DNA of 64,000 nucleotides, taken from NCBI RefSeq assembly GCF_003284725.1, contig NZ_PGTO01000001.1, positions 310,001 to 374,000 of the forward strand, given 5' to 3'. The notes under the pieces were generated by a model. That model was not told the DNA's origin. It made no database searches and was given only the letters and a program-made list of their open reading frames with translations. Below, piece by piece: positions 21,384 to 43,102 of the stretch (within the stretch, counting starts at the first letter, position 1; each line of letters opens with the position of its first letter). This DNA comes from Paramagnetospirillum kuznetsovii. GTDB lineage: Bacteria > Pseudomonadota > Alphaproteobacteria > Rhodospirillales > Magnetospirillaceae. Both the position numbers and the translations under genes were made by a program.

Positions 21384-21422
21384 GATATTCTCCATTGGTT
21401 GATCTGATGGGGAGACAAGCCA

Positions 21423-24530: not shown

Positions 24531-24555
24531 GCTTGGTCTCCTGTGATGAGGGGGG

Positions 24556-24594
24556 CAAAAAAACCCCCGCCGGTCGGGATGACCGGCGGGGGGA
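24556..24594 (-). terminator. Terminator between tail fibre 1 and terminase
   Basis: On the minus strand CCCCCGCCGGTC and GACCGGCGGGGG pair around ATCCC, followed by TTTTTTT. It sits just 25 bases before the small terminase start. Confidence 0.9.
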
Positions 24595-26628: not shown

Positions 26629-28806
26629 TTACTTCCACTGCATCCAAAGGCCGTGGACGCGCTGTTCCTTGGTGTTGAAGGTCTTGATCCTCCATTTGAG
26701 GCTGGTGCCCGACGGCTGACCCGCCGCCGAGGCGGAGCCCTTGAGGACGCGGGCGCCGGAAATGGGGCTGGGACCGAAGTCGGTCATGGTGACGGCGGTC
26801 CAGGTGGTGCCGTTGTCGCGGCTGACCTCGAAGGTGATGTCGGTGTTGATCACCGCCGTTCCGCTGATGTCCTGGTATTCCGCCACCAGCGAAAGGGTGG
26901 AGGGAGCGGACTGGGCGGTATAGGCGTTGGATGCCACCGTCATATTCGGCGGGTTCGCGACTTCATAGAATCGCGCTTCGGCACACCGGATCTCGGATCC
27001 CGAGACGGTTGGTACCACGTAGAGCCTGACATAGCTGTAGGCCGTTGCCGTATCGCCGCTGGTCACGGTTACGCTGGTCGGGTAAGTCACCGCGCCGTCG
27101 GCGCTGCCCAAAGTCGTCCAGCTTGATCCGTCGTTTGAACCCTGAAGATAGACCGTTGATGCGGTCGGGCCAGCAACCATGTTGCCGTCAGCTGGAACGT
27201 AGTAGATGCCCGAAGCGATACGATGCCCGGTACCCAGGTTTTTACCAATATAGGAATTGGTGGCGCTGCTCTTGGTGGCACTGGCCGTGACAGACTGGCT
27301 TGTCACGCCATCGAAAGCCCCCGCCAATCCTCCGCCTCCCGTCATGTCCCCAATGGCGGTGCCGGTGGCCTGCGCGATCATGGAGGTGCTACCCGGATTG
27401 CTCAGATACCCACTCGATACCGTGCCACCGCCCAGGCTGGCGATACCCGACGCCGCATCGAATTCGTCGGCCACTTGGGTGCCGCCCACATTGGGGCTGG
27501 TGGGGGTGTCGAGACGGGCCACCGCCAGATAGAGCTGACCCACATCGGGGGTCAGATCGGGGCCGGAATTGGCCGCCACATAGGCCTTCACCGCCTTCTG
27601 GCTGGCCAACCTGGAGTCGCTGTTGGCGGCCAGGGTGGTGTCGGTATCCACATCCAGCGGCGATGCCGTTCCCAGGTTGGGCCTGCCCGACAGATCGGTA
27701 TAGGCGCCGCTGGCCGCCACGGTGGCGAGGCCGGTCACCGAAATGCGCAAACTCTCATCGGCGCCGGGATTGAGCACCGTGAGCGCGATGTTGCTGCCCG
27801 CCGTCAGGGTATTGGACAGATAGGCCGAGGTCGTGTCGCTTCCCGAGACCTTGACGGCGCCGCCCGAAGCGGCGGCCGAGGCGACGGCGGCACTGGCGGC
27901 GGCGGCCACTTCGCTGGCATGGGCGGTGGTCGCCGAACCGGCGGCGGCGGCGGCACTGGCGGCGGCGGCGGCGGTGTTGGTGGCCACGGTGGCTTTGTCT
28001 GCGGCCACGGCGGCGCGGTCGGCGGCGGTGGCGGCGGCATCGGCGTCGCAGGCGGTTCTGGCCGTGGCGGCGGCGGCGGCGCTGCTCGCGGTGGCGAGCT
28101 TGTCGCTGGCCACCGTGGCTTGGTCGGCCGCGACGATCGCCTTGTCCAATACGACGGCGGCGCGGTCGGATGCGGTGGCGATGGCATCGGCATCGCAGGC
28201 GATCTTATAGCCGAACGCCTGGGTGGCGCTGGCCTGGGCGGTCGCCGCCTGGGTCGAAGCGGTCGCGGCGCTGGCGGCGGCCTGGGCGGCCTGGGCGGTC
28301 ACGGTGGCGGTGCAGGCGGCGAATTCGGCGGGATCATTGGTCAGCCCGCTGCCGTCGGCATTCCAGCCGATGGCTTTGCCCGGTTCCGGCTCGGGCAGGG
28401 TGAGGTCGGCGGAACTGGCGCTGAGGAAGGAGCGCTTGGCGGCGCGTCCGACATCCTCGGCCACCTGCTGCAGGGCGGCGGTCTGGTAATCCAACTCGTC
28501 GTTCAGCACCTTGGCGCGGATGATGCCGTCTTCCTGGTAATCGGACGTCCGGGCGATGGAAAGGCGGCGGCGAAGGGTTACCAATGCCCCCGGCACCGGC
28601 GGCGCGGCGAAGAGCACGGTGCCGCCGCTGGAGATTCCCACACCCGAAATGGAATAGGCGGGCGTGGTCTGGCGAGTCTGGTCCAGCCAGACCTCCAGAT
28701 CGGCGGCGGTGAAGACGGGAAACGGAAAGGTGAAGGCGGTCTGGCTGCCGCTGGCCGCGTATTGGATGCGCGGCGCCGCGTCGCCGACCTGGATATGGTC
28801 GGTCAT
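26629..28806 (-). CDS. Phage tail fibre 2 with long alanine-rich shaft
   Basis: 725 residues. The N-terminal domain (about 1-130) is paralogous to that of tail fibre 1 (FTFPFPVFTAADLEVWLD, TLRRRLSIARTSDYQEDG, LNDELDYQTAALQQVAEDV). Residues of about 150-305 are very Ala-rich with an A-A-x-x-A-T/D pattern, likely a trimeric coiled-coil shaft. One copy of the SGAYTDLSGRPNLGTASPLDV repeat follows. The C-terminal 250 residues contain a discoidin/F5-F8-like stretch (STVYLQGSNDGSSWTTLGSA), suggesting carbohydrate binding. Confidence 0.83.
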   Translation of the reverse strand: MTDHIQVGDAAPRIQYAASGSQTAFTFPFPVFTAADLEVWLDQTRQTTPAYSISGVGISSGGTVLFAAPPVPGALVTLRRRLSIARTSDYQEDGIIRAKVLNDELDYQTAALQQVAEDVGRAAKRSFLSASSADLTLPEPEPGKAIGWNADGSGLTNDPAEFAACTATVTAQAAQAAASAATASTQAATAQASATQAFGYKIACDADAIATASDRAAVVLDKAIVAADQATVASDKLATASSAAAAATARTACDADAAATAADRAAVAADKATVATNTAAAAASAAAAAGSATTAHASEVAAAASAAVASAAASGGAVKVSGSDTTSAYLSNTLTAGSNIALTVLNPGADESLRISVTGLATVAASGAYTDLSGRPNLGTASPLDVDTDTTLAANSDSRLASQKAVKAYVAANSGPDLTPDVGQLYLAVARLDTPTSPNVGGTQVADEFDAASGIASLGGGTVSSGYLSNPGSTSMIAQATGTAIGDMTGGGGLAGAFDGVTSQSVTASATKSSATNSYIGKNLGTGHRIASGIYYVPADGNMVAGPTASTVYLQGSNDGSSWTTLGSADGAVTYPTSVTVTSGDTATAYSYVRLYVVPTVSGSEIRCAEARFYEVANPPNMTVASNAYTAQSAPSTLSLVAEYQDISGTAVINTDITFEVSRDNGTTWTAVTMTDFGPSPISGARVLKGSASAAGQPSGTSLKWRIKTFNTKEQRVHGLWMQWK

Positions 28807-28960: not shown

Positions 28961-30853
28961 CTATTCGGCGGTCTTGATCTGGGCCGAGACCGACAGGATG
29001 GTGCAGGGCATGGGCACGTCCTGGCTGATACGCCACAATGGCCGCATGGGGTCTCGGCTCCAGCCGATGGCGCGCACGCGGACATCGCCGGAAAAGCTGG
29101 GAGGCTCGGCGCCGAACCGGTCGGAGCCGAAGCGGCGGAACGGAATGGGGATGGCCCCGCGTCCGGTATCGATGTGCAAGGCCTTGGTGTCGAGCACCCG
29201 AAACGTCGCCTGGACCAGCCGAATCAGTTGGCCTGGACCGGATTGGCCGCCCAGCGGCGGCAGCGGCTCGATGACATGGACATAGGGCAGTCCCACCTGG
29301 ATGGTCTTGGCCGGTTGGGCCAAGGTGACGTGGCCGTCCGCGACCGAATGGTCGGCGACGGCGCCGCCATCGGCCAGAACGCGGACCGTGCGTCCGTCCA
29401 GATGATCGAGTCCGTTCCAATTGGCCGAGGCGGTCTCCTTCGCGCCGGTCAGGGCGCAATCCAGGTTCAGCGAGTCGTCGAAGCGCTCGATGAACACTTG
29501 GCCGTCGCGCTCCACCAGGACGAAGACCTCGCCCTCCATGGCGGCCACCGCCAGGAAGCGTCCGGCGGTCTCGATGACGCTCCAGGCGGTGACCTTTTCC
29601 GAGCGGTAAATGGTCAAGGTCGCCAGCGACCCGTCCTCCATGACCACGTGAAACAGCCGGTGGACCGAGTCGTAGTCCTGATCCACCGGCCCTGTCATGA
29701 CATGCTTGGCGATCATGGCCAGATCGGCGGCCTGATAGGCCTGCTCCACGTCGGCATAGAGGAATTCACGCAGGTCGCGGAGATTTCGCGAGATGAAATG
29801 GGTGGCGCCGTCCACGTCGCGGGGCGGGATCATGCGGAGGGTGGGCGAGCCGATGCGGGTCTGGCGGGTGACCTGGATCTTGGTCGGCGTCAGCGGCGTG
29901 CCGGTGACCATGTATTCGGCGCCCGAGGTGAAGACCTGGAGATGACGGCCGGAAAACACGGCGCGGACGGCGTTGACCTGATCGGACAGCATGGAAAACT
30001 CGATGGCCTCGTCGTCGAGCCCGGTGCCCAGATCGAAATCGAACAAGTCCATGCTCTTGGACAGCCACAGCCGGTTGGGCAGGTCGCGACTACCGCCGAT
30101 CACCAGGCGGCCCTGGTGAAAGCAGACCGAAACCGGCCAGCCGCGCAGGACGGAGAAGCTTTGCTCCTCCCAATCACTGGTGGCCTCGGTGCCGGTCAGG
30201 GTCTCCTTGACCTCGGCGCTGGCCGAACTGGCGGAGGCCACGGCGGTGATCAGCACCTGCTTGGCGGCCAGGCGGAAGCGCAATCCCACATGACCGGCCT
30301 GGAACACGGCGGCCGAGGCGGTCAGCGTGATGGTGCCCGATGTGCCGCTGGCGGTCAGGGTGACCTCGTCGGCGGCGAATTTGTGGTGGGGCAGATAGAG
30401 GATGCCATCCTCCTCGTGGAAGCTCCACTCGGCCATGCTCCAGCCGTCGCCCGTGCGGGTGATCTTGCGTGGAGGAACGTCGGGATGGACCACCAAAAGC
30501 GTGTCGGCGCTCTGGGTCCAGGCCAGTTGCGGGATTTGGTCGGCGGTCCACGGCGTGTCCAGATGGGCGACAGGACTATCGTCGGCATAGATGTCGAGAT
30601 GAAGATGGCTCACCACCATCAGATAGGTCTGTTCGGTGTTGAACTCGAAGGCGATCAGGCGGCCGGGACCACGGGCCTTGTCCACATAGCGCAATCCGGC
30701 CCGGCGGCCGACGCCGCCGGTCGGCGCCACGATGACGTTGCGCAGGCGCCGCGCTCCGTTGGCGAAGGCGCCGAGATCGCCGCGCCCCAGCATGGCGGTG
30801 TCCAGCTCGCCCGCGGTGAAGCTGGTCTTGGTGATGGTGACGAGGCCGCTCAT
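28961..30853 (-). CDS. Tail tubular protein B (T7 gp12-like nozzle)
   Basis: 630 residues. The start TKTSFTAGELDTAMLGRGDLGAFANGARRLRN is typical of gp12-like nozzle proteins of podoviruses, as is the following VGRRAGLRYV. A beta-rich body contains VCFHQGRLVIGGSRDLPNRLW and FTSGAEYMVTGTPLTPTKI, both conserved in this family. It forms the tail tube below the gatekeeper. The ATG overlaps the stop of the upstream gene for the A protein. Confidence 0.88.
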   Translation of the reverse strand: MSGLVTITKTSFTAGELDTAMLGRGDLGAFANGARRLRNVIVAPTGGVGRRAGLRYVDKARGPGRLIAFEFNTEQTYLMVVSHLHLDIYADDSPVAHLDTPWTADQIPQLAWTQSADTLLVVHPDVPPRKITRTGDGWSMAEWSFHEEDGILYLPHHKFAADEVTLTASGTSGTITLTASAAVFQAGHVGLRFRLAAKQVLITAVASASSASAEVKETLTGTEATSDWEEQSFSVLRGWPVSVCFHQGRLVIGGSRDLPNRLWLSKSMDLFDFDLGTGLDDEAIEFSMLSDQVNAVRAVFSGRHLQVFTSGAEYMVTGTPLTPTKIQVTRQTRIGSPTLRMIPPRDVDGATHFISRNLRDLREFLYADVEQAYQAADLAMIAKHVMTGPVDQDYDSVHRLFHVVMEDGSLATLTIYRSEKVTAWSVIETAGRFLAVAAMEGEVFVLVERDGQVFIERFDDSLNLDCALTGAKETASANWNGLDHLDGRTVRVLADGGAVADHSVADGHVTLAQPAKTIQVGLPYVHVIEPLPPLGGQSGPGQLIRLVQATFRVLDTKALHIDTGRGAIPIPFRRFGSDRFGAEPPSFSGDVRVRAIGWSRDPMRPLWRISQDVPMPCTILSVSAQIKTAE

Positions 30854-31419
30854 GACCGCACCTCCACCAGGGGGAAATCGGAAATGGCCGGCGGCGTGTG
30901 CTGCTGGCCGTCGATCAGCTTGGCGCGGCGGAATTCGTCTTCCGCCAGGCGAAACAGGAACTGCGCCCGCGTGGTGCTCTCGGTGATGGGAATGCAGAAC
31001 TCGGCGGTGAGCCGCGCGATCAGCATCTGGTCGAAGAACGGCGGGAAGCCGCTCTCGTCCGGGCGGAAGACATAGGTCAGCACCACCTCGTCGGCGTCGC
31101 ACAGCAGGCGGTTCTCGGCGATGCGATAGGTCAGGCCGTGGCCGCGACCGCTGGGGCCGGCCGACAGCACGCGCAGGAAATCGGCGGGCAGCTGATAGGC
31201 ATGGCCGTAATCGGCCAGGGGCTCGCCCGCCAGCCGGGGCAGGGTTGCCTGCGCGGTGGCGAAGCTCCACGGATGCGAGCTCAGCACCGCGTCGCGCAGC
31301 GGCGGATACAGATTGGCGGCCACTTCCGATTCGGCGGTGCCGTCGTCGAAACTGGCGATGGTGGTGGCTCCGACACGCAGCAAGGCACGCGAACAGAGCG
31401 CGATGGCGGACAAGGCCAT
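30850..31419 (-). CDS. Tail tubular protein A (T7 gp11-like gatekeeper)
   Basis: 189 residues, matching the gp11-like adaptor in size and pattern: ALCSRALLRVGATTIASFDDGT near the N-terminus, RDAVLSSHPWSFATAQATL, then YQLPADFLRV and an ITEST-type C-terminal helix. It connects the portal to the tail nozzle. Start codon at 31419, with GGAGTAACCGTC upstream. Confidence 0.88.
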   Translation of the reverse strand: MALSAIALCSRALLRVGATTIASFDDGTAESEVAANLYPPLRDAVLSSHPWSFATAQATLPRLAGEPLADYGHAYQLPADFLRVLSAGPSGRGHGLTYRIAENRLLCDADEVVLTYVFRPDESGFPPFFDQMLIARLTAEFCIPITESTTRAQFLFRLAEDEFRRAKLIDGQQHTPPAISDFPLVEVRS

Positions 31420-31479: not shown

Positions 31480-32589
31480 CTACAGCAGCCCCATCTCCGC
31501 GCCGAAGTCTTGGCTGAACGCGTCGGGGTCGGCCGCCTCGCGGGTGAAGATGTTGAAGCGCCCCAAGGACAAGGCCTTGTCCACGTCCTCGGTTCCGTGC
31601 CGGGTCAACGCGGCTTTCAGGGCGAAGTCGGTCTTGGGGCCGTAATCGCCGTCCTCGGCCAGGGGCGGCTGTTTGGTGTAGTCGCCCCAGGCGGACGAGC
31701 GTTCCGGCAACGGATTGGCATCATTGAACAGGTTGAGGCCGCGTTGCAGCCCCTTGACGGCGGTGCCGTAGCCATCACTCTCGGCGGCCTTGGCGATCTT
31801 GTCGCCCATGCGGGCAGAGGCCTGCCACAGATCCTCGCCCTGGGGTGTCACATGGGGCGAGGCCTGTTCGGGAATGGCGCGGATGGGACGGGGCTCCACC
31901 GGCTTGCCGCCGTCGTATTGCTGCTCGCCATCGCCGTAATGGGTGGTGTGCCAGTCCTGGACCCGCTCATACAGATGGGCCTTCAGCGGATCGCCCGACC
32001 TCCAGCCGGTGAAATCCTCCCCGGCGGACCGCAGCACGTCCTTCATCTCGCCCTCGGTCCAATTCTCCACCTGCTTCAGCAACACTGAGCGGACCGGATC
32101 CTCGATGGGCGCGGCGGCCCGCTCGCGCAGGGCGGCGATGCGGGGGTCGGTGTTGGCTGTTTGTTCCGCCCCGTTGGCGAGGCCGCCGATGTCGTGGTCG
32201 CCATCGGGACTATCCCGGGATGCGGAAGCAGGCTCATCACGTGGATCCGCGCTGGTGGCAGCGACGATATCCGGGGCCGTCATGATCAAATTTTGGATCT
32301 CACCCTTGAGTGTTTCGAGATGTTGCGACAGGTCGTTATAATTTTGGATCTCTCTGTCCTTGGCTGGGCCTTCCGGCATATTCTCTATGCGACCCTTCAT
32401 CTTACTCAATTGGCGTTGAATTTGATCGCGGACTTGGCTGAAGTTGCGAATTTGACCATGTATCTGATCGACGCTATTTCGATCCAAGCCTTTCCTGCTT
32501 GGAAATATCCCGATATCCCCTGGCGATGGAACCGGGCGGATAATCTCGGAATCGACCGTCCAAGTGTCGCTCTTTTTGGAATTTGGCAT
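31480..32589 (-). CDS. Internal-virion-like paralogue with coiled-coil N-terminus
   Basis: 369 residues. Residues from about 135 to 335 are nearly identical to the middle of the lysozyme-domain protein at 19773-21383 (GEDLWQASARMGD, GDYGPKTDFALK). The lysozyme domain is absent. The N-terminal 110 residues are different and form a predicted coiled coil (RDQIQRQLSKMKGRIENM, QHLETLKGEIQNLI). It is a domain-swapped version. Its place between capsid and tubular genes suggests a virion component, but this is inference. Confidence 0.65.
   Translation of the reverse strand: MPNSKKSDTWTVDSEIIRPVPSPGDIGIFPSRKGLDRNSVDQIHGQIRNFSQVRDQIQRQLSKMKGRIENMPEGPAKDREIQNYNDLSQHLETLKGEIQNLIMTAPDIVAATSADPRDEPASASRDSPDGDHDIGGLANGAEQTANTDPRIAALRERAAAPIEDPVRSVLLKQVENWTEGEMKDVLRSAGEDFTGWRSGDPLKAHLYERVQDWHTTHYGDGEQQYDGGKPVEPRPIRAIPEQASPHVTPQGEDLWQASARMGDKIAKAAESDGYGTAVKGLQRGLNLFNDANPLPERSSAWGDYTKQPPLAEDGDYGPKTDFALKAALTRHGTEDVDKALSLGRFNIFTREAADPDAFSQDFGAEMGLL
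31613..32191. repeat. Long duplicated segment, copy 2 (pairs with 20105-20681)
   Basis: This is the partner of the near-identical segment in the lysozyme gene. Identity ends sharply on the N-terminal side near the shared IGGLAN codons. Confidence 0.85.
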
Positions 32590-32639: not shown

Positions 32640-33242
32640 ATGCGGTTTGCATGGTCTGTGGCGGTGGTTTTATTGGTGTCCTGGTTCGCTTCACCCAGTA
32701 CGGGCGCGGCCGCGGATCCCTGGTCGCGGATGGAATCCAATCCGGATATCCTCGCCTTGGAAAAGAAGGCGTGGAGCGGTGATTATCTCGCACTTCGCGA
32801 TCTCGGCTTGGTCTACCGCAACGGGTTAGGTGTCGAGCGCAGGCCGGATGTGGCGAACGTCTTCTTCGACATGACGGAGCGTCGCTATCTCGAAATCGCC
32901 GAGCGCGTTGGGGAGAAAGAGGACGAAGCTGAATTCGCTATTGGCCAGCTTTTCTACTCTTTGGAGAATGCGCGGGGTGAGAATGCCCGCGCCGCCCACT
33001 GGTTTGCCCTGGCGGCTGAAAAGGGCAACGTCAATGCCCAGTATTACCTCGGAGGTTTGTATGCCTCCGGTGATGGTATTGCTGCCAACCCCGACCTAGC
33101 GGCTCGATGGATACTGGCAGCGTTGAGGCAAGGAGAAAGGAACGCCCACGAACTTTACTGCCGTTGGATAGGGCAAGGTAAGGTAACGCGCGATGAGGCA
33201 GAGGCGTCACGCTGGTGTTCGCCGTCGCCCAATAAGCCGTGA
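32640..33242 (+). CDS. Secreted Sel1-repeat protein
   Basis: 200 residues with a signal peptide (MRFAWSVAVVLLVSWFAS, cleavage near residue 24, ATGAAA). Sel1/TPR-like repeats follow, including YLALRDLGLVYRNGLGVERRP and the clear ARAAHWFALAAEKGNVNAQ and LGGLYASGDGI segments. Sel1 proteins are protein-interaction scaffolds in the periplasm or at the surface. The gene runs opposite to the phage genes and diverges from a lysozyme paralogue, the same arrangement as the secreted-protein pair at 21.4-22.7 kb. Confidence 0.78.
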   Translation: MRFAWSVAVVLLVSWFASPSTGAAADPWSRMESNPDILALEKKAWSGDYLALRDLGLVYRNGLGVERRPDVANVFFDMTERRYLEIAERVGEKEDEAEFAIGQLFYSLENARGENARAAHWFALAAEKGNVNAQYYLGGLYASGDGIAANPDLAARWILAALRQGERNAHELYCRWIGQGKVTRDEAEASRWCSPSPNKP

Positions 33243-33633: not shown

Positions 33634-33903
33634 TTAGCGCGTATCGGCGGACCCGATCTGGGTCATGTCGTTGACATCGACCACGCCGCCGGAATTGGCG
33701 GAGACCAGGAACATTCCGCCTTTCAGGGCGCCTGCCGTATCGACGTTGGCGACGATGATGTCGCCCAAGCGCAGCATGGTGGACGCGGCGTTGAAATAGC
33801 CGCTGGTGTCCACCGTGGCGGCCACATCGGCGGTGGTGTAGTGCCACAGCGTGAAGCCGTTGGCATAGGCCAACACGCTGAGATCCTTGGACTGATAAGC
33901 CAT
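33634..33903 (-). CDS. Small phage structural protein next to capsid
   Basis: 89 residues of mostly beta pattern (FTLWHYTTADVAATVDTSGYF, IIVANVDTAGALKGGMFLV). Directly downstream of the capsid gene, as are small decoration or stabilisation proteins in several podovirus-like prophages. The sequence does not prove the function. The ATG at 33903 follows AGGAGGCCCCC. Confidence 0.6.
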   Translation of the reverse strand: MAYQSKDLSVLAYANGFTLWHYTTADVAATVDTSGYFNAASTMLRLGDIIVANVDTAGALKGGMFLVSANSGGVVDVNDMTQIGSADTR

Positions 33904-33913
33904 GGGGGCCTCC

Positions 33914-34732
33914 TTAGGATTCGAGGCAGCGCATGGAGACGATGCCGGCGGCATCGACCAGTACACTGCCCTGGGACATGAAGTTGTTGATGAACCAGGC
34001 GGCGCGATCGCCCTGATAGGTGATCTCGGTCTTGACCTCGGCGCCGCAGGCGTGGCCGATGGCGGTCTTGTGGTACCAGTAGCAGTAACGGACGCTGCTG
34101 CTCTTGGTCAGGCCCGAATGGGGCATCCACAGGGTGCCCAGCCACTTCTTGGCCTGGGTGCCCTTCCACGGCAATTCGTCCGGGCCGACATAGTCGGCAT
34201 GGGCGAATTCGGTGATGTTCATCAGGTCGGACCACTGCTTCCAGCCGACCACGGCATAGCGCTCGCCGTCATCGGGGACATCGGCGTCGCCCAGCATCTC
34301 GAAGGCGTCCAGCACCTTGGCCTTGGTCAGGCCGGTGGTGCCGTCCAGCGCATAGTTGGTGGACTTGTCCAACTCGGCGATGATCAGCTCATCGGTCTTG
34401 CGGCCCAGCGCATAGGCCCCGGCATTGGTGAGAACGGCGCGTTCGTTGTGCTCGATCTTGAGGTCGTCCAGCTTGTCGAGCCAGTCGCCCGCATAATAGT
34501 CGAACAACTGGCATTCCACCGCCGCGTGATCGACGTTCATCACCGGCACCTTGCCGTGGCGGGCCTTGGTGCTGGCGGTGCCCTTGCCGACCTTCTGGAA
34601 CACCGCGATGGCGCCCTTGACGTCGTTGCGCACCCGCACGGTGTTGCGCAGCTTGGTGCCCATGCGCTGATAGGCGTCATGGACCTCGTGGCCATACTGC
34701 TTCGAGTAGGCGTTGATGACACTTGTGGACAT
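33914..34732 (-). CDS. Major capsid protein (putative)
   Basis: 272 residues. The segments YGHEVHDAYQRMGTKLRNTVRVRNDVKGA, VQVMNVDHA-like VPVMNVDHAAVEC and ERYAVVGWKQWSDLMNITEFAHADYVG resemble HK97-fold capsid proteins of T7-like prophages. The genomic position (after scaffold, before tail tubular genes) supports this. AAAAGGAAC lies just before the ATG. A likely promoter with the conserved CACCCACACCACAGT motif lies upstream. Confidence 0.82.
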   Translation of the reverse strand: MSTSVINAYSKQYGHEVHDAYQRMGTKLRNTVRVRNDVKGAIAVFQKVGKGTASTKARHGKVPVMNVDHAAVECQLFDYYAGDWLDKLDDLKIEHNERAVLTNAGAYALGRKTDELIIAELDKSTNYALDGTTGLTKAKVLDAFEMLGDADVPDDGERYAVVGWKQWSDLMNITEFAHADYVGPDELPWKGTQAKKWLGTLWMPHSGLTKSSSVRYCYWYHKTAIGHACGAEVKTEITYQGDRAAWFINNFMSQGSVLVDAAGIVSMRCLES

Positions 34733-34878
34733 GATTTGTTCCTTTTGTGGTGATGGGTCTGGAGGGAATGGCGCCCGCCATCGCGGTTATGATCGGGTCA
34801 TCGGCTTGGATGCCCATCGCCGGACGAAGCAGGCGCAAGCCCTTGGGCCGGATTTTGACCGGTTGTCCTTCGGGCATG

Positions 34879-34928
34879 ACTGTGGTGTGGGTGATAAGAA
34901 ACTAACCCTATTATAGGAATAACGTCAA
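34879..34928 (-). promoter_or_regulatory. Candidate phage promoter B upstream of the capsid gene
   Basis: On the minus strand TTGACG (34928-34923) is followed 29 bases later by CACCCACACCACAGT (34893-34879). The same pair with 30-base spacing lies at 42221-42171 before the portal genes. TTGACG is a good -35; the conserved 15-mer would lie at or just after the transcription start. Between 34733 and 35117 I see no gene. Confidence 0.55.
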
Positions 34929-35117
34929 GATAAAAATTGAGGGTGGCTTTTAATATCCCAACTCAGGGCGGCGAAGGCCGGGTGGCTTCTTGACCCGAGG
35001 CTATCCGCGCCGCCATGCCGAATATGGGATGCGAAATTCACGCTGTCAGAGGATTGGAAAGTCGCTATCATCTGGCCGTTTCCAGTTCCGCGCGCTGATT
35101 TCGGGGGTGTCTTGTCC

Positions 35118-35846
35118 ATGAATCTGGTGTCGACTTCGGGGCGCGCCCAGACCTTGCGCACCGACCGCATCGAAGCCCGCGCCAATGGTCTGCTCGGTGA
35201 TTGCCGCCGGGCCTTTCACGCCTTCGGCGACTTGGACGAACTGGCCGAGAACCTGCGGATTCTATCTTTGAACGCTGAACTGGCGGCCGGGCGGGCCGGT
35301 GATAAGGGGCGCGCGGTGCGGGCGCTGACCCAATACACCCGCGAACTGGTCAACCGCCTGGCCCAGATTCAGGGCGAGATGAATACCCTTCGCGGCCACA
35401 CCTTCGCGCTGTCATCGACCATCCTGCGCGGCATGAGCCAGTTGGCCCTGTTCGAGCGCGCCTGCGAATTGATCAATGACGGCCAGCACGATTCGCGCGC
35501 CTGTTCCATGGCCGATCGCGCTTTCAACGACATCATGCGGATGCTGGTCGACACGCTGGATTCCATGGCTGGCGCCGTCAAGGATCTGGCGCGGCGCACC
35601 CATGGGGTGGAAGAGGTGGTCAGTCAGTCCGATTCCATCGCCACCAACATCGCCATCGAAGCCGCCGCCGCCGGTGTCCACGAAAAGGAATTCCGCACGG
35701 TGTCCGATACCATGCGCCGTTATGTGGACGATCTGCGCACCATGATCGACGAGGCCTCGGATGCCGTTCGGCGGGCATCGGAAAAGGGCGATGCCCTGCG
35801 CAGGCTCGGACTCGACAGTCTCGACGACAGCGAATTCAACGGCTAG
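35118..35846 (+). CDS. Soluble MCP-like sensory protein
   Basis: 242 residues with no signal peptide or membrane helix. Two stretches resemble the conserved signalling region of methyl-accepting chemotaxis proteins: LRILSLNAELAAGRAGDKGR (about 53-72) and SIATNIAIEAAAAGVHEKEF (about 174-193), each followed by a heptad helix. The tip residues that bind CheA/CheW are poorly conserved, so it may not contact the chemotaxis kinase. The next gene, 10 bases on, encodes an ODP-like diiron protein. The ATG at 35118 is preferred over TTG 35112. Both genes sit on the plus strand inside the phage module. Confidence 0.72.
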   Translation: MNLVSTSGRAQTLRTDRIEARANGLLGDCRRAFHAFGDLDELAENLRILSLNAELAAGRAGDKGRAVRALTQYTRELVNRLAQIQGEMNTLRGHTFALSSTILRGMSQLALFERACELINDGQHDSRACSMADRAFNDIMRMLVDTLDSMAGAVKDLARRTHGVEEVVSQSDSIATNIAIEAAAAGVHEKEFRTVSDTMRRYVDDLRTMIDEASDAVRRASEKGDALRRLGLDSLDDSEFNG

Positions 35847-35856
35847 AGAGCGACCC

Positions 35857-36615
35857 ATGAAGTGCGTCACCCTATTCCGCGACAATGATCATTGCTGGCA
35901 GGCCTTTGGCCAGGATCCGGACAAGCCGGCCAATGTGATCGACACCAACCAGTACATGATCCGCTCCGGCGATTCGGCCATCCTGCTGGACCCCGGCGGC
36001 ATGGAGGTGTTTCCCGCCATGCTGTCGGCGCTCAGCCGCGAGATTTCCGTCGACGACATCAAGATGCTGTTCCTGTCCCATCAGGATCCGGATATCGGCT
36101 CGTCGCTGCCGCTGTGGCGGCGGGTATGCCGGTCGGATGTGAAGATCTATCTGTCCTGGCTTTGGGCCGGTTTCACCGCTCATTTCGACCGCGACGCCGC
36201 CTTCACCACCATTCCCGACGAGGGCATGGAGATCGCGCTTTCCCATGACGTGAGGCTGCGCTTCGTTCCCGCCCATTACCTGCACTCCTCTGGCAATTTC
36301 AATGTCTATGACCCCAAGGCGCGGATCTTGTTTTCCGGCGACATGGGCGCTTCGCTGGTGCCGCCCGACAAGACCAACGGTTCCATGTTCGTCAGCGATT
36401 TCGCTGGCCACATCCAATACATGGACCTGTTCCATCGCCGCTGGCTGGCCTCGACCCGGGCGCGCGACGCCTGGGTGGCGCAGGTCTCCAAGCTGGATAT
36501 CGATATTCTGGCGCCACAGCACGGCTTGATCTTCAAGGGCGACGACGTCAAGCGCTTCCTCGACTGGATCGCCGGTCTGGAGATCGGCACCGGCGTCAAC
36601 GCCATGAACCGCTGA
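35857..36615 (+). CDS. ODP-like diiron metallo-beta-lactamase-fold protein
   Basis: 252 residues of the MBL fold related to the diiron domain of flavodiiron proteins, but with no flavodoxin domain. Metal-site candidates are His75, Asp77 and Asp79 (SHQDPDIG), His140 or His143, Asp162 (FSGDMG) and His222 (PQHG). The canonical HxExDH is changed to HxDxDI. Stand-alone proteins of this type (ODP) bind oxygen and iron and have been described as sensors coupled to chemotaxis receptors in Treponema. Adjacency to the MCP-like gene supports a two-protein oxygen or iron sensor. Enzymatic NO or O2 reduction is the alternative. Confidence 0.8.
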   Translation: MKCVTLFRDNDHCWQAFGQDPDKPANVIDTNQYMIRSGDSAILLDPGGMEVFPAMLSALSREISVDDIKMLFLSHQDPDIGSSLPLWRRVCRSDVKIYLSWLWAGFTAHFDRDAAFTTIPDEGMEIALSHDVRLRFVPAHYLHSSGNFNVYDPKARILFSGDMGASLVPPDKTNGSMFVSDFAGHIQYMDLFHRRWLASTRARDAWVAQVSKLDIDILAPQHGLIFKGDDVKRFLDWIAGLEIGTGVNAMNR

Positions 36616-36646
36616 TCAAGACGGCTTCTCGAACGCCTCCGGCGGC

Positions 36647-37582
36647 TCATGCCGCCCGATCCGAGCGATCTTCCTTGGTGTCTTCTGGAATAGCCGGGCG
36701 AGCGGAGGCACCGCCGGGGGGTGGATCGAGATCGGGTTCGGCGCAGGGATCCGTGGGAACAACGCCGGGCACCGCGCGGCGATAGGCGGCCATGGCGTCG
36801 GCCTTGTTGGCCAGCAGGCGCTGCAGCGCCGCCTGATCCGCCGAATTCCAGATGCTGGGATGACCGCAGGCAAGTCGGGCTTCGGCCAACCGCCGCCAGG
36901 CGATGCCGGGACGGGCGGCGCCATTGCTGGGCGGATTGGTGTTGCAGGCGATTTCGAACCACAAGGTGGCGCGCTCGCCGCTCACCAGGGCGCGGCTGGC
37001 CTTGGGCGTGGGGCGGCCGATTCCGATGTTGAAGCGTACCGAGGCCAGTCCCACCTCCTGGGCGGAATGGACGTAACCGGCCGCGATACGCTTGGCCTCG
37101 TCCAGGCCATAGCCCTGCGCCGTGGCCTCGGCCAGGATGTCGCCGAGCACGGCGCGGCGGGCGGGCTCCCATTTGGTCAAGGCCATGGCCCGCATGCGGG
37201 AATCGTCCAAGGTGAAGCCGAAGCGGTTGCGATCAGGGGTTTCCCGGCGGGAATCGAAGGGCGGGATCAGCGCCTGGGCACCCGGCACGTCGCCTTGGCC
37301 GAGGGCGCGCAGGCATTGAAGCAGGCGCTGGCGCTCCTCCAGGGTGAAGACATAAGGCTGGGCGGAATCGCCGCTGATCTCCGCGCCAATCTCGCCCCAG
37401 GGGCGCAGGCGCCAGCCGGCGGGACCGCTGACCGCCAGGGCGATGCCGGTGCCCATGGTGGGGACACCCTTGCAATCGGTATAGATGCGGCCGATCACGC
37501 CTTCGAACCGCTTCAGGTGCTCCCAGACCAGCCGGTCATGGCGATCGGCGGCGATGGGGATGGGGGGCAGGGGGCTGGACAT
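36647..37582 (-). CDS. Putative phage endolysin with lysozyme-like N-terminus
   Basis: 311 residues. Near the N-terminus LKRFEGVIGRIYTDCKGVPT and then MGTGIAL show the Glu, Asp and Thr spacing of T4-type/pesticin lysozymes (E-x7-Y-x-D-x3-G-x2-T-x-G-x-G). The remaining 230 residues contain a region (RFNIGIGRPTPKASRALVSG, ARPGIAWRRLAEARLA) similar to other phage muramidases. Function would be murein hydrolysis at lysis. GGGAG precedes the ATG at 37582. Neighbouring holin-like genes at 38306-39235 agree with a lysis role. Confidence 0.72.
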   Translation of the reverse strand: MSSPLPPIPIAADRHDRLVWEHLKRFEGVIGRIYTDCKGVPTMGTGIALAVSGPAGWRLRPWGEIGAEISGDSAQPYVFTLEERQRLLQCLRALGQGDVPGAQALIPPFDSRRETPDRNRFGFTLDDSRMRAMALTKWEPARRAVLGDILAEATAQGYGLDEAKRIAAGYVHSAQEVGLASVRFNIGIGRPTPKASRALVSGERATLWFEIACNTNPPSNGAARPGIAWRRLAEARLACGHPSIWNSADQAALQRLLANKADAMAAYRRAVPGVVPTDPCAEPDLDPPPGGASARPAIPEDTKEDRSDRAA

Positions 37583-37596
37583 GTGGGATCTCCCAT

Positions 37597-37628
37597 GAAA
37601 AAGCCCGCTCCCTCGCGGGACGCGGGCG
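37597..37628 (-). terminator. Hairpin with T-tract ahead of the endolysin gene
   Basis: On the minus strand GCCCGC-G-TCCC-GCGA-GGGA-GCGGGC is followed by TTTTT. It precedes the endolysin start by 15 bases, the same placement as the other phage-module terminators. Confidence 0.75.
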
Positions 37629-37707
37629 TGGTGATCGTAAGCAAACTGCAGCGACGGCTTGCCACCCGGCGCGGATGGGGTAACAATACAGCCGGATCGG
37701 CATGCCC

Positions 37708-37733
37708 TAATTCGGTACTCCAATACCGAATTA
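37708..37733. promoter_or_regulatory. Perfect 10-bp inverted repeat upstream of the ferritin-like gene
   Basis: TAATTCGGTA, CTCCAA, TACCGAATTA: ten-base arms with a six-base gap, 69 bases before the ferritin-like start. Symmetry and AT-rich edges look like a dimeric repressor site. The TTCGGTAnnnnnnTACCGAA form recalls Rrf2-type operators, but the regulator is unknown. Confidence 0.7.
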
Positions 37734-37802
37734 AATCTTGACGTGCCGGTCCCCCGCCGATACCCTTTCGACCCACTCCGATGAAGCATTCAAGAGGCGC
37801 AG

Positions 37803-38303
37803 ATGGGCTATTCCCTGGCAGAATTCCTGGCACATGCGATCGCACTCGAGCAGGAGGCCGCCGAGCGCTATCTCGAACTGGCCGACATGATGGAAGCGCA
37901 CAACAATCTGGAAACCGCCGAGGTCTTCCGGGACATGGCGCGGTTCTCCACCATGCATGGCGACGAGATCAAGAGCCGCGCCCGGGCGATGGAACTGCCC
38001 AAGCTGCTGTCGTGGCAGTACCGCTGGAAGACGCCGCCGGAAGTGGGCGGCGACGACGAGGTCCACTACCTGATGACCCCCTATCACGCGCTGCGCTATG
38101 CCCGCGACAACGAGGTCCGGGGCATGGAGTATTACCGCGAGGCGGCCGCCAACAGCGCGGACAACGAGGTCAAGCGCCTGGGCAAGGATTTCGCCGACGA
38201 AGAGGCCGAGCATGTGGTGGCGCTGGACAAGTGGATCGAAAAGACTCCACGTCCCTCCATCACCTGGGCCGAGGACGCCGACGAGGCCCAGAGCGTCGAT
38301 TAA
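37803..38303 (+). CDS. Ferritin-like (rubrerythrin-family) protein
   Basis: 166 residues forming a four-helix ferritin-like domain. Metal-site candidates are Glu18 and Glu21 region (LEQEAAERY), His52/Glu55 (HGDE), Glu104 and Glu109 (NEVRGMEYY) and Glu134-x2-His137 (DEEAEH). There is no rubredoxin CxxC domain. Such proteins store iron or detoxify peroxide in the cytosol. It is on the plus strand between phage lysis genes and has its own likely operator at 37708-37733. It is flanked by phage genes, so it appears to be cargo. Confidence 0.82.
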   Translation: MGYSLAEFLAHAIALEQEAAERYLELADMMEAHNNLETAEVFRDMARFSTMHGDEIKSRARAMELPKLLSWQYRWKTPPEVGGDDEVHYLMTPYHALRYARDNEVRGMEYYREAAANSADNEVKRLGKDFADEEAEHVVALDKWIEKTPRPSITWAEDADEAQSVD

Positions 38304-38305
38304 GT

Positions 38306-38878
38306 TTAAGGTTTGATGCCTGACTTCAGCATGGCCAGCGGTCCCTCCGAAAGGGGGGCGCCGCTGGCCAAAGCTTTGTCATGGCTGCGCTTGACCACCG
38401 ACACGCCCAGCACGGCCAGGGCGATGCCCCAGATGGGCGAGGTGTTGACCAGGGCGGCGATGATGGAGGGTGCCTGGGCGGGCTGTGCGACGATGGCCCA
38501 GGACACCGACGCCATGGTGGCGGTCCAGGTGATGGCCATGGCATAGCCGAAGGTGGGTCGCCAGCGGCGCACATAGGCATCCTCGGCCAGGGCTTCCACC
38601 CGCATGGTGGCGTTGATCTCGGCCAGTTGACGCGATTCCTCTTGAACCAGGGCCAGTTCGTGGCCCATCCAGGCCTGTTGCAGTTGAAGCGCCAGGGCCG
38701 GGTCGGCCTTGACGGCGGCCAGGGCGTCGGCGCCGGTCTGGGTGCCGGTCACCGCCTTGGCGAGGCCGACCACCTGATCGGCCACTTTCGCCGCCTTGGC
38801 GTCGTCGTCGCCGGAAATCCAGCGGATCAGGCCGGGCACCACTTGGGCGAGACCGAGGGCGATGGTGATGGGGTCCAT
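38306..38878 (-). CDS. Holin of the GTA_holin_3TM type (putative)
   Basis: 190 residues. The N-terminal half is helical (LGLAQVVPGLIRWISGDDDAKAA, AWMGHELALVQEESRQLAEIN). The C-terminal half has two or three hydrophobic helices (about 108-130 and 136-160) preceded by RRWRPTFGYA, the signature of the 3TM holin family first noted in gene transfer agent release. It ends 3 bases from the convergent ferritin-like gene. Its role would be to permeabilise the inner membrane. Confidence 0.82.
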   Translation of the reverse strand: MDPITIALGLAQVVPGLIRWISGDDDAKAAKVADQVVGLAKAVTGTQTGADALAAVKADPALALQLQQAWMGHELALVQEESRQLAEINATMRVEALAEDAYVRRWRPTFGYAMAITWTATMASVSWAIVAQPAQAPSIIAALVNTSPIWGIALAVLGVSVVKRSHDKALASGAPLSEGPLAMLKSGIKP

Positions 38879-38903
38879 GATGGGCTTCTCCTAAGATTCC
38901 GTC

Positions 38904-38933
38904 CGAGGCACGCGCCCGGCGATTGGGGGCATG
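38904..38933. repeat. Partial copy of the dispersed GC-rich repeat
   Basis: GAGGCACGCGCCCGGCGATT and GGGGGCATGA match the right end of copies A and B (GGCGCCCGGCGATTGAGGGCA). The GCCGCCGGAGGCGGC core is absent. Confidence 0.5.
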
Positions 38934-38935
38934 AT

Positions 38936-39235
38936 TTATTTTACGCAGCCCTGGCAGCCGTCCAACTTGGCTTCGATGCGGACCAGGTGCTCGGTCAGGC
39001 GGTGCTCCACATCCTTGAGATAGCCGGTGGTGGCGTAGCTCTTGGCCACTTCCAGCTTATAGGCCGACAGGGCGTCGCGGGCCTGGCCGAGGCCGATTTC
39101 CAGCCGGTGCTCCAATTCATCGACGCGGTGATCGGTCTCCTGGCGGGTGCGCCACAACAGCATGGCGAGGCCGCCGAGAACCGGCAATTCCACGGCGGTC
39201 GTCCACCAGCCGGGATCGAAGACGGTATGGTCCAT
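38936..39235 (-). CDS. Small membrane-anchored coiled-coil lysis-associated protein
   Basis: 99 residues: one membrane helix at about 11-28 (TAVELPVLGGLAMLLW) and then a long heptad helix (VDELEHRLEIGLGQARDALSAYKLEV). It ends in a CQGCVK tail. Layout is like XhlA or short spanin/holin accessory proteins. Position directly before the holin gene supports a lysis role. Exact function unknown. Confidence 0.55.
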   Translation of the reverse strand: MDHTVFDPGWWTTAVELPVLGGLAMLLWRTRQETDHRVDELEHRLEIGLGQARDALSAYKLEVAKSYATTGYLKDVEHRLTEHLVRIEAKLDGCQGCVK

Positions 39236-39329
39236 GTCAGGTCTCCTGATGGGGCGCTTTCAGTCGCCCGAGATTGGAGCCGAATCGACGGCGGTTCGGG
39301 GTGGCCGCCTTGGCCACCCCGTTCCCAAT

Positions 39330-40034
39330 TCAGCCCTCGCCGTAGAGACGGGCGAAACCGGCGGTCACCTTGGTCATGAAGGCGGGGTCGCGGGTCTTCC
39401 AGTAGCGGGGATCCTGGATCATCTTCTTCAGACTCTCCTCGGTGGGGGCCTCGTCGGCGGCGCCGGTGGCGGGGCCGAGATTGGGCTCGCCGCCGGCCAT
39501 CAGGCGGTGCAGCGCCTTGACGCCATCGGCGGACGAGGCCAAGGCCTTATAGGCGTCCGGAGGCAGGTTCTTCTTGCCCCAGGCGGCCAGTTGCGGAGCG
39601 ATCACCCGCCAGCGGGATTCGCCGCCGAAATGCTGGCACAACTGATCCATATGGGCCTTCTGGTCGGACTGTCCGGCCAGATCCTGCAACAGCGGCAGCA
39701 GGCATTCATGGGCCAGGTCGTAGACCAACTGGGCCTGATCCTGGCTGAATCCGGCCGCGTGCAGGCGCTGGTTCACCACCGGGCTGCCGACCAGCATGGG
39801 ATGACTGTGGTCGATCCGGTAGAGTTCGGGCGAGGCGGGAATATCGGACGGCTTGGCGGGCACGAAGGCGCGGCGTTCCAGATCGCGATAGGCGCGCAAC
39901 AACGCCTCGACCCGGATTTCGCCCTTGGTGGGATCCCAGAATTTCTCGGGGACATTGGTGGGACGCGGGGCTGACACGGGGGCGGCGGGCGCACCCAAAT
40001 CGGCGCCGGTATCCTTGGAATCTTCGTAATGCAT
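39330..40034 (-). CDS. Capsid scaffold-like protein (T7 gp9-like)
   Basis: 234 residues, acidic and helical. It contains PEKFWDPTKGEIRVEALLRAYRDLERR, a pattern repeatedly found in scaffold or capsid-assembly proteins of podoviruses ahead of the coat gene, and a C-terminal EESLKKMIQDPRYWKTRDPAF segment. Scaffold proteins guide procapsid assembly and then exit. The order portal, scaffold, capsid is that of T7 although holin, lysis and cargo genes intervene here. Confidence 0.75.
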   Translation of the reverse strand: MHYEDSKDTGADLGAPAAPVSAPRPTNVPEKFWDPTKGEIRVEALLRAYRDLERRAFVPAKPSDIPASPELYRIDHSHPMLVGSPVVNQRLHAAGFSQDQAQLVYDLAHECLLPLLQDLAGQSDQKAHMDQLCQHFGGESRWRVIAPQLAAWGKKNLPPDAYKALASSADGVKALHRLMAGGEPNLGPATGAADEAPTEESLKKMIQDPRYWKTRDPAFMTKVTAGFARLYGEG

Positions 40035-40063: not shown

Positions 40064-40330
40064 CTAGATTCCAGTCCGGCCGCGGGCGACCAGGGTCTGG
40101 AGGTGGAGGACGAGGTGGCGCTGGCCTTCCAGATGGCGCAGCGCGGCGTCGCCGCTGTCGGGGCCAAGGCAGCGGTCCAGCGTCATCTCGCGGAGATGGG
40201 CCAGAACCGCCTCGCCGTCGGCGGTGGCGAACAGCCGCGCCGTCTGGCGGGCCAGGGTGAGGCCGGATTCGTCCTCGGTCGGCCGGGCGGCGGGGTCGAA
40301 CCAGGTCCAGCCGGTTTCAAGGCGTGGCAT
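40064..40330 (-). CDS. Bbp19-like small phage protein
   Basis: 88 residues. The core ARLFATADGEAVLAHLREMTLDRCLGP and ALRHLEGQRHLV match the Bbp19 structural family (named after Bordetella phage BPP-1) which lies next to portal genes. Its start overlaps the portal gene end by 14 bases. Role in the virion is not established. Confidence 0.75.
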   Translation of the reverse strand: MPRLETGWTWFDPAARPTEDESGLTLARQTARLFATADGEAVLAHLREMTLDRCLGPDSGDAALRHLEGQRHLVLHLQTLVARGRTGI

Positions 40331-41870
40331 GTTCGGTCTCCGTCGCGGCGGGTTGGGGGTGTTCCGGCCGCATGATCTCGGCGGGAACGTTGAAGGTGCG
40401 CCCCAGCCAGCGGGCGCAAGCGACGAGGTCGATGGCCTCGGTCGCGGCGGGGCCTAGCTGGTTCAGCGAGCCCAGCCAGGTCAGCACGTTGCGGGCGTCG
40501 CGCTGGGCCTGGTTCTGGGCCAGCGGCGAGCGGTACTGGAGATCGACGGTATGGCCGTCCACCACCAGATCGGGAAGCTCGCCGCGACGGCGCAGGATAT
40601 GGACGGCGCGCATGACCAGCGGCGTCAGCAGCTCGCTTTGCAGCCGACCATAGGTCGCGCCCAGCAGCCGCGCCATCTGGGCGGAGCGTTCCAGCACCTC
40701 GGTGGCCGTCATCTTCGGCGTGTCCACCTGCGCCAATCGGTCGGCCATCAGGGCATGGCGGATGCGGCCGCGCAGATCGTCGAGCACCAGTTGCGAGGTG
40801 TCGAAGCGGCCCGGCGCGGAAAGCGGCTGTAAACCGGCCGAGCCCACCGCCTTGGGGATGATGGTTCCGGGCACCAGCTTGATATTGGCGGGATTCAGCA
40901 CGCCGTCGTCATCGGCCTGCCAGATGCCGGTCACCGCGATGGTGGCGTTCTTCAACACCAATTCCACCACCTTGTTGGCGGTTTTGATATCGGGCAAGGC
41001 CTTCATGACCGGCGAACGGCCATAGACTTCGCCCGGCGCCTTCAACCACCGGAAATTGATGAAGGGCGACATCTCGAAGCGGCCCGAGGCCAGCACGGTG
41101 CCGTCGCAATCGGCATCGAATTCCAGCACGGCGGCATAGGAATAGCCGTGCTCCAGCGGCGTCACCGCCTCGATCACGCCAAGGCGCAGATCAGGATCCT
41201 CGGCGGCCGCCTTGACGAGCTCTTCCGGCGGCAGGGCGGCGGGAAAGCGCGATCGCAAGGCCGCCCAAGTCACCTCGGAGCGGCGAAAGGTCACGTCGGG
41301 GCGGCCTTGCGGCCCTTCCTCCAGCACCACCTGGCCCAACGGTACGGCGGTGAAGCGGAAGGCGGAGGCCTCGCCCGGCGGCGCTTCCTCGAACAGCAGC
41401 GAGGCGGTGCCGCCGGTCACCACGTCCAGATAGCACTGATGCATCTCGACGGCGAAGTTGGAGCGGTCGAAATGGGACTGGACCACGGCGCCGAACCGCT
41501 CCAGCGCCGGGGCGGCCCGCTCGCGCTCGTCCTGGGGCAGATGGTCGCTGGCGGTCAGGCCGAACCATTGCGCCCAGGGCGGCGTCAGTTCCGACAGCAG
41601 GCTGGCGGCAAGCTGATCCACCGCGTCGGGGGCGGTGCCGTCGAACAGGCGGTCGGCCTTCTTTTCTCCCGGCGTGCCCTGGCCCAGGATGCCGTCGCGC
41701 AGCGGCAGGGCATAGTCGTAGCATTCCTGCCAGTGGGATTCCCACACGGCACGGCGTTCCTTGGCCTTGCGGTAGCGCTTGACCAGGGTGGCGGGATCGT
41801 CGTTGGCGGGGCCGAGCGGCTGTTCGCCTCGGGCCGCCGCGTCGGCGTCCTCAATGGGGGGGGATGGCAT
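40317..41870 (-). CDS. Portal (head-tail connector) protein
   Basis: 517 residues, matching T7 gp8-type connectors. Recognisable segments: RRAVWESHWQECYDYALPLRDG near the N-terminus, LFDGTAPDAVDQLAASLLSELTPPWAQWF (about 80-108), INFRWLKAPGEVYGRSPVMKALPDIKTANKV (about 275-305) and TATEVLERSAQMARLLGATYGRLQSELL. It forms the dodecameric ring for DNA passage. It starts 2 bases after the stop of the small upstream gene. Confidence 0.92.
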   Translation of the reverse strand: MPSPPIEDADAAARGEQPLGPANDDPATLVKRYRKAKERRAVWESHWQECYDYALPLRDGILGQGTPGEKKADRLFDGTAPDAVDQLAASLLSELTPPWAQWFGLTASDHLPQDERERAAPALERFGAVVQSHFDRSNFAVEMHQCYLDVVTGGTASLLFEEAPPGEASAFRFTAVPLGQVVLEEGPQGRPDVTFRRSEVTWAALRSRFPAALPPEELVKAAAEDPDLRLGVIEAVTPLEHGYSYAAVLEFDADCDGTVLASGRFEMSPFINFRWLKAPGEVYGRSPVMKALPDIKTANKVVELVLKNATIAVTGIWQADDDGVLNPANIKLVPGTIIPKAVGSAGLQPLSAPGRFDTSQLVLDDLRGRIRHALMADRLAQVDTPKMTATEVLERSAQMARLLGATYGRLQSELLTPLVMRAVHILRRRGELPDLVVDGHTVDLQYRSPLAQNQAQRDARNVLTWLGSLNQLGPAATEAIDLVACARWLGRTFNVPAEIMRPEHPQPAATETEHATP

Positions 41871-42982: not shown

Positions 42983-43102
42983 GTTTGTTCTCCATAAATA
43001 GGAACGAACGCAGCACAGCTTTGCCGAATTGCGGAACAAATGTCAATGGTTGCGGCTTATTTTCCTGCTGCGGCGAGGCGCGAATTGCGAGACAATCTTC
43101 CC

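Follow-up and report, generated by a model that had tools for sequence, protein, structure and literature searches.

A putative ODP–MCP sensory pair set within a T7-like, phage-derived gene module of Rhodospirillales

The gene pair and its two proteins

The subject of this analysis is a pair of adjacent genes in a 64,000-nucleotide stretch of the genome of Paramagnetospirillum kuznetsovii (contig NZ_PGTO01000001.1, positions 310,001 to 374,000), the whole of which is called the window below. Both genes lie on the plus strand, 10 bases apart, exactly as the initial annotation of this DNA had it: the first (35118-35846) encodes P0001, a soluble protein of 242 residues resembling the methyl-accepting chemotaxis proteins (MCPs), and the second (35857-36615) encodes P0002, a protein of 252 residues belonging to the ODP family of oxygen-binding diiron proteins. 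The same annotation paired an ODP with a transducer of MCP type and set both amongst structural genes of a phage; this is borne out, as is the conservation of the pairing. We think it rather probable that the two proteins constitute one oxygen/iron sensory unit, likely acting via CheA/CheW, in a fixed slot of a domesticated T7-like gene set.

P0002 is encoded by an intact open reading frame (ORF) and matches the Pfam ODP family (PF19583, 2.1e-72) with 243.5 bits, the curated cut-off being 27.2; it also matches two solved oxygen-binding diiron proteins, 6qrq and 6qnm, at 3.8e-63 and 3.5e-60. Its HxDxD, PAH, SGD and PQH motifs (residues H75-D77-D79, H140, D162 and H222), which we take to be the metal ligands of the superfamily, agree in alignment with those of both solved proteins and show little or no variation across 17 aligned ODP homologues. 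The initial annotation had read the first of these as HxDxDI and treated it as an oddity. The reading is correct (HQDPDI), but since both solved ODPs have HQDPDV and the motif is nearly invariant in the homologues, it is the motif of the family and no oddity. No flavodoxin or rubredoxin domain was matched in the 252 residues, and the protein is a stand-alone ODP. P0002 is predicted to bind oxygen and/or iron at its diiron site.

P0001 matches Pfam MCPsignal (PF00015) in two stretches, with an E-value of 1.9e-8 and a score of 34.8 bits, barely over the cut-off of 34.6; a profile built from 42 of its homologues finds solved MCPs at 5e-10. The N-terminal and C-terminal halves both align to the same tip segment of one MCP from the same genome, which was the only one of six candidate loci with an ORF passing the motif filter. 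To this extent the earlier description of a helical MCP-like protein with two signalling half-repeats stands. The AlphaFold2 model is confident and all-helical, and by DSSP the second copy is a hairpin of two helices (126-184 and 186-241) that break at the tip, residue 185, with pLDDT above 90; a turn in the first copy is suggested by the 194-198 residues that align to bundle proteins. Because both halves match one MCP segment, and in view of the model, we propose that each chain carries two signalling tips, and P0001 may be a single-chain pseudo-dimer of two receptor hairpins. The chain looks too short to include a methylation region, and no credible DNA-binding domain was found in it by the Pfam scan. 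Amongst the 42 aligned homologues N52, R59 and E181 are invariant, and N177 is nearly so.

Several observations weigh against this view of P0001. Comparison of profiles of the two halves with each other gave no support for a duplication (probability 3.4%), and DSSP shows no break at the tip of the first copy, residues 39-119 being one helix. The best 50 matches listed in a fold comparison include no MCP signalling-domain chains; they are bundles of many kinds, and the only receptor domains amongst them are the sensor domains of McpS and PilJ. The first copy also lacks the usual tip glutamate and the second the usual tip arginine, both of which presumably have roles in MCP signalling tips; with tips diverged in this way, docking to CheA may be altered.

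Conservation of the pair and of its slot

A match to the ODP at an E-value of 0.001 is present in 32 of 55 genomes of the bacterial family, some of these being generic matches to the metallo-beta-lactamase fold only. The loci examined, 37 besides the window, were drawn from the 38 of 49 listed matches with at least 40% identity, the other 11 (28-32% identity) being left out. A clear MCP-like homologue adjoins the ODP in 34 of the 37, the one in L061 being truncated where the contig stops; the homologues of L074 and L075 are diverged (about 3e-5), and L076 has none. Because 34 of 37 ODP loci have this neighbour, the pairing is, as judged from gene order, far beyond chance. The initial annotation had proposed such a survey of co-occurrence across genomes, and the adverse outcome it named, homologues that are never neighbours, did not occur.

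A scan of genome contigs with the MCP-like alignment gave 66 loci, mostly from Magnetospirillum, Paramagnetospirillum, Phaeospirillum and other Rhodospirillales, and 65 once a Cupriavidus locus (L142, E 3e-4) had been dropped. An ODP gene was found in 42 of the 65 and phage structural genes in 36, within stretches whose lengths differ and on contigs of which several are short, so that contig ends limit the counts; a phage gene was scored as nearby if a capsid, p110, tail tubular protein A-like (TTA) or B-like (TTB), large terminase subunit (TerL), scaffold or portal match exceeded 35 bits, the S24 repressor gene being excluded. The remainder of the division is as follows: 21 loci have the MCP-like gene and the ODP without phage genes, 15 have the MCP-like gene in the phage module without the ODP, and eight have the MCP-like gene alone. 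Of the 21 loci with the pair and no phage genes, six hold a second-copy (MCP2-like) pair and five have kept an S24 gene. In the case of L087, the genome has a capsid gene on another contig. The absence of the ODP from 23 of the 65 loci counts against a single two-protein unit.

P. kuznetsovii itself has a second pair, counted amongst the 37 loci, on contig 43 (L002/L059), the ODP being 60% and the MCP-like protein 40% identical to those described here; none of the phage genes searched for lies in the 20 kb stretch that contains it. It is followed by a gene with an end that appears by eye to be helix-turn-helix-like, and this gene is kept with the pair in L070 and L071. The MCP-like gene occurs without an ODP or any of the searched phage genes nearby in L122, L123, L125, L126, L127 and L129, the hosts of such lone genes being Terasakiella, Novispirillum and metagenome-assembled genomes labelled Methylocystaceae. 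In phage records the MCP-like protein has no match at an E-value of 0.01, and an ODP-like gene was found at 1e-5 only in H21 and H22 (Acinetobacter phage MD-2021a), with 37% identity and annotated as metallo-beta-lactamase superfamily.

Where the pair does accompany phage genes, its position is constant. In the window the capsid gene (33914-34732, minus strand; PF19821 2.1e-84, phrog_3437 3.2e-64) is divergent from the gene for P0001 across an intergenic region at 34733-35117, and the same layout is seen in all 32 loci that have both genes. In all 22 loci with scaffold, capsid and MCP-like genes, the last lies between the other two and antiparallel to them; both sets of loci include close kin. 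Each of the 17 genomes of the genus has the pair next to the capsid gene, the scaffold gene or both, also where the module is split. The capsid gene is present in 49 of 59 genomes with the MCP-like gene, versus 101 of 238 without it, counts that are uncorrected for kinship.

The best clue to function comes from the replacement of the ODP by globins. The ODP of L119 runs on into a globin and a bacterial-type globin, and that of L117 into a bacterial globin; no ODP was found in L121, where the MCP-like protein is itself fused to both globin types. Such swaps, in three loci, argue that the sensor in the slot may read oxygen or another gas, and they favour an oxygen or gas role, the initial annotation having put forward oxygen or iron sensing. 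A different extension occurs in the four viral contigs that the ODP alignment retrieved (L143-L146), where no MCP-like gene was seen and the ODP continues into a further domain, with weak DHHA1 matches in L143 and L145 and a similar appearance, by eye, in L144 and L146. The extension was compared with solved proteins for L145 only, where it matches PggH at 9e-128; PggH hydrolyses pGpG, a breakdown product of cyclic di-GMP, and the fusion is a possible link to cyclic di-GMP breakdown. By eye, the ODP motif appears partly degenerate in L144-L146.

The constancy of the slot raises the possibility that the sensory unit is there specifically to control the particle genes, the oxygen/iron state (read by ODP or globin) timing the capsid operon and the lysis genes, possibly together with the S24 repressor. 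The divergent intergenic region shared in every one of the 32 loci, the persistence of the pair beside capsid or scaffold when the module is split, and the co-occurrence of MCP-like and capsid genes, kinship aside, all fit such a role. However, 21 of the 65 MCP-like loci have the pair with none of the seven phage markers in the stretch, which also means that it does not depend on phage genes for company in the way the initial annotation implied; and 101 of 150 capsid-bearing genomes have no MCP-like gene at an E-value of 1e-15. Several viral contigs found by their capsid gene (e.g. L156, L158, L160 and L161) have portal, scaffold and capsid and no MCP-like gene. As the MCP-like protein has no credible DNA-binding domain, a relay would also be needed. 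Control of the particle genes by the pair is unproven, and we regard a dedicated controller as doubtful.

The phage-derived module and its descent

The capsid gene was found in 33 of the 55 family genomes, including all 17 of the genus and all 13 of a second large genus (g15); within the genus G039 has only a 73-residue remnant and G044 a partial match. It is mostly present as one copy, with two in G022, G026, G030 and G032 and a second, short fragment in G048. The portal, too, is strongly matched in these 33 genomes, with the match of G026 falling into pieces, and four more of the 55 have weak matches only. In a sample of the order, the capsid is present at an E-value of 1e-20 in 150 of 297 genomes and 49 of 111 genera. 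Often the module is not contiguous: G021, for instance, has 1.37 Mb between its portal and capsid genes on one contig. In G039 (L204) the capsid remnant lies near the holin gene and most capsid-side genes are lost, the pair, scaffold and portal being kept elsewhere.

Median pairwise ratios of nonsynonymous to synonymous substitution (dN/dS; Nei-Gojobori, pairs with dS between 0.1 and 1) are 0.23 for capsid, 0.27 for portal, 0.46 for scaffold, 0.25 for TTA, 0.32 for TTB, 0.19 for TerL (11 genomes, from the examined loci) and 0.41 for p110. The corresponding values are 0.26 for the MCP-like gene, 0.23 for the ODP, 0.17 for S24, 0.14-0.23 for three host neighbours and 0.10 for RecA. By this measure the module is under purifying selection. 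Distances for the phage genes and the pair correlate with those for RecA (r 0.65-0.90, p 0.0005 for each, all taxa), and FastTree gene trees have four to eight of 11-14 splits in common with the RecA tree, compared with 0.2-0.3 when labels are shuffled. Two results tell against a wholly vertical history: the host neighbours track RecA more closely (r 0.91-0.96; three genes, five to seven genomes), and each gene tree has one to three supported conflicts with RecA. Since distances correlate with RecA and splits are shared, descent has been largely vertical, with a measure of exchange.

The module, known here from its genes, looks domesticated in the manner of a gene transfer agent (GTA), and not of the RcGTA type. 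GTAs are in general built from phage-derived structural genes inherited by their hosts. An RcGTA-type identity was considered and rejected: the marker GTA_TIM (PF13547), the only RcGTA marker searched for, was found in none of the 55 family genomes, the control in Caulobacter being positive, although a holin model named after GTAs (PF11351) does match.

An ordinary prophage was likewise set aside as the leading explanation: within the genus, most genomes have one copy each of portal and capsid, these genes follow RecA, and many species have them at separate places in the genome. It follows that ‘phage-carried cargo’, as the initial annotation had it, does not apply in its usual sense: a module that is mostly single-copy, is inherited mainly vertically in the genus and occurs in half of the sampled order is no recent prophage. 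Much the same evidence bears on the suggestion that the pair is host cargo (a moron) within an ordinary temperate or degenerating prophage to which it bears no functional relation. The pair is indeed on the strand opposite to the phage operon, pairs exist elsewhere without phage genes, and G039 keeps its pair with scaffold and portal when only a remnant of the capsid is left; but the spread, copy number, purifying selection and RecA tracking of the module speak against it, as do host flanks and the lack of any recognised integrase or replication gene in the window. A moron is, in our estimation, quite unlikely.

The other genes of the module in the window are arranged on both sides of the slot. 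On the capsid side, all on the minus strand, are p110, a small protein gene after the capsid gene that adjoins it in many loci (33634-33966; phrog_18004 1.6e-19); p369 (31480-32589), without a family match; TTA (30850-31419; phrog_394 tail protein, 3.6e-47) and TTB (28961-30973; phrog_376 tail protein, 1.4e-139), for which the T7 names are assumed to apply; two tail-fibre-like proteins (24603-26540 and 26629-28806; phrog_1640 tail protein); TerL (22741-24558; phrog_38 6.8e-82, with a Terminase-T7 RNase H-like match of 0.00028, below the cut-off); and p540 (19773-21395), lysozyme-like at a weak PF00959 E-value of 0.0032, below the cut-off. A Sel1-repeat gene on the plus strand (32640-33242) lies between p369 and p110, and a Sel1-like gene is also present in the module of L092.

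Beyond the ODP lies a minus-strand gene (36647-37591) for another lysozyme-like protein, again weak (PF00959, E 0.006, below the cut-off); the initial annotation had set the pair between a phage lysozyme and the capsid, and the capsid end of that statement is secure whereas the lysozyme end is weak only. There follow a rubrerythrin/ferritin-like protein (37803-38303, plus strand; PF02915 4.9e-12) and, on the minus strand, the holin GTA_holin_3TM (38306-38878; PF11351 2e-18), p99, a conserved small phage protein (38936-39235; phrog_29007 1.2e-45), the scaffold or T7 capsid assembly protein (39330-40034; PF05396 3.4e-14) and the portal or head-tail adaptor (40317-41870; phrog_332 1.3e-104). In the window (36600-39300) the genes for p99, the holin and the rubrerythrin-like protein stand between scaffold and ODP; in relatives including L085 and L105 they come after the terminase gene, a local rearrangement. 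The rubrerythrin-like gene adjoins the holin gene in the window, L085, L105 and L204; it was not detected within 0.8 to 2.5 kb past the holin in L089, L090, L093 and L108. At the portal end is an S24/CI-like repressor (43040-43735, plus strand; PF00717 1.6e-24, phrog_4 repressor 1.7e-26) with weak helix-turn-helix matches only.

The module is flanked by host genes, namely those for propionyl-CoA carboxylase subunits, carbonic anhydrase and methylmalonyl-CoA mutase on one side and for an SDR protein, a Cys/Met PLP enzyme, ApaG and GTP cyclohydrolase on the other. No tRNA gene was detected in the window, and amongst the module ORFs compared with Pfam or PHROGs, several of which match nothing, none could be recognised as an integrase or replication gene. 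Between 18800 and 44200 no flanking att repeats are convincing as module ends. The direct repeats there are mostly internal, comprising fibre repeats and 300-nucleotide duplications at 20026-20325/31535-31834 (85%), which is the stretch shared by p540 and p369 (repeat D2), and at 21411-21710/22059-22358 (84%); there are also short imperfect pairs (e.g. 19740-19764/42073-42097, 80%).

Proposed mechanism and comparison with known systems

It is very improbable that P0001 is a structural or decoy helical protein and no signalling adaptor, with the ODP an enzyme that scavenges oxygen: the diverged tips, the very short bundle, the nearby rubrerythrin-like gene and the loci without an ODP are compatible with this, but the conservation of N52, R59, E181 and N177 and the lack of an electron-feeding flavodoxin or rubredoxin domain in the ODP speak against it. 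In the sensory unit that we favour, the ODP would be the sensing protein and P0001 its soluble transducer, a one-chain helical bundle imitating the tip of an MCP dimer, which would most likely dock onto host CheA/CheW arrays and pass the signal on. Contact between the two proteins is proposed here, as is coupling to CheA, the latter by analogy with Treponema denticola. The unit would occupy its fixed, divergently transcribed place between scaffold and capsid in a gene set inherited mainly vertically by Rhodospirillales.

A more far-reaching proposal, tentative and on present evidence unlikely, is that Rhodospirillales, including magnetotactic species, carry a widespread T7-derived GTA of an undescribed class, in which an interchangeable oxygen/gas sensor cassette in the slot gates the production or release of particles; the cassette would take the forms MCP plus ODP, MCP plus ODP-globin, MCP-globin and, on viral contigs, a fusion of ODP with a PggH-like phosphoesterase. 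The pair brings a known type of oxygen-sensor and receptor combination together with conserved genes of phage origin in bacteria whose way of life depends on oxygen gradients, and whether these bacteria link oxygen sensing to particle production is a question open to experiment. Were this so, the oxygen level would be an input deciding when these bacteria make virus-like particles; even if not, the widespread T7-like set is a candidate GTA outside the RcGTA type. An MCP-like protein that appears to mimic a receptor dimer in a single chain would, in addition, be useful for studies of receptor arrays.

Amongst the open-access literature matches listed, as far as their titles and the openings of their abstracts go, none concerns this element or an alphaproteobacterial ODP pair, and the accessible portions of PMC10783043 and PMC13236601 contain nothing on the element. 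The combination of an ODP with a soluble MCP homologue is already known; within the same limits, no precedent was found for its location in a domesticated T7-like set, for a chain with two tips or for the exchange of sensors.

The RcGTA and CcGTA of Alphaproteobacteria are alike in that they consist of phage-derived structural genes kept by descent in their hosts; here T7-like parts replace the RcGTA set. The Rhodospirillales row of the GTA-Hunter table (PMC6821227) reads 24, 10, 0, 15, 0, 0 in an extract that lacks the column headings, and we take the zeros to mean no RcGTA-like cluster. Capsid homologues matching over the whole length are found in the Pelagibacter phage EXVC031P Hodr (48% identity) and in MT838907, an unannotated 5 kb phage record (55%); Hodr has a phage genome of 34 kb, whereas the genes recognised here are limited to those for structure, packaging and lysis. 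In Magnetospirillum gryphiswaldense, seven prophage regions, a counterpart of this module perhaps amongst them, were predicted and parts of some deleted during genome streamlining (PMC7860042). CetA2/CetB2 of the same species, and so of the same bacterial family, also form a two-protein oxygen-related receptor (PMC12442639, in part), but one that, according to a review (PMC13401364, in part), works by FAD-dependent redox sensing; it is unrelated to ODP.

The closest comparison is with T. denticola, in which, on the evidence of the sections of PMC7666581 available, the stand-alone ODP TDE2498 is genetically coupled to the MCP homologue TDE2496; the latter is soluble and modulates CheA, and loss of the ODP changes the order of CheA. 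The initial annotation took the missing membrane helix of P0001 for a departure from Treponema, which it is not, because TDE2496 also lacks transmembrane and sensing modules (PMC7666581, same sections). The differences are rather that the receptor described here has 242 residues and two tips per chain, and that its gene lies directly upstream of that for the ODP, amongst phage-derived genes.
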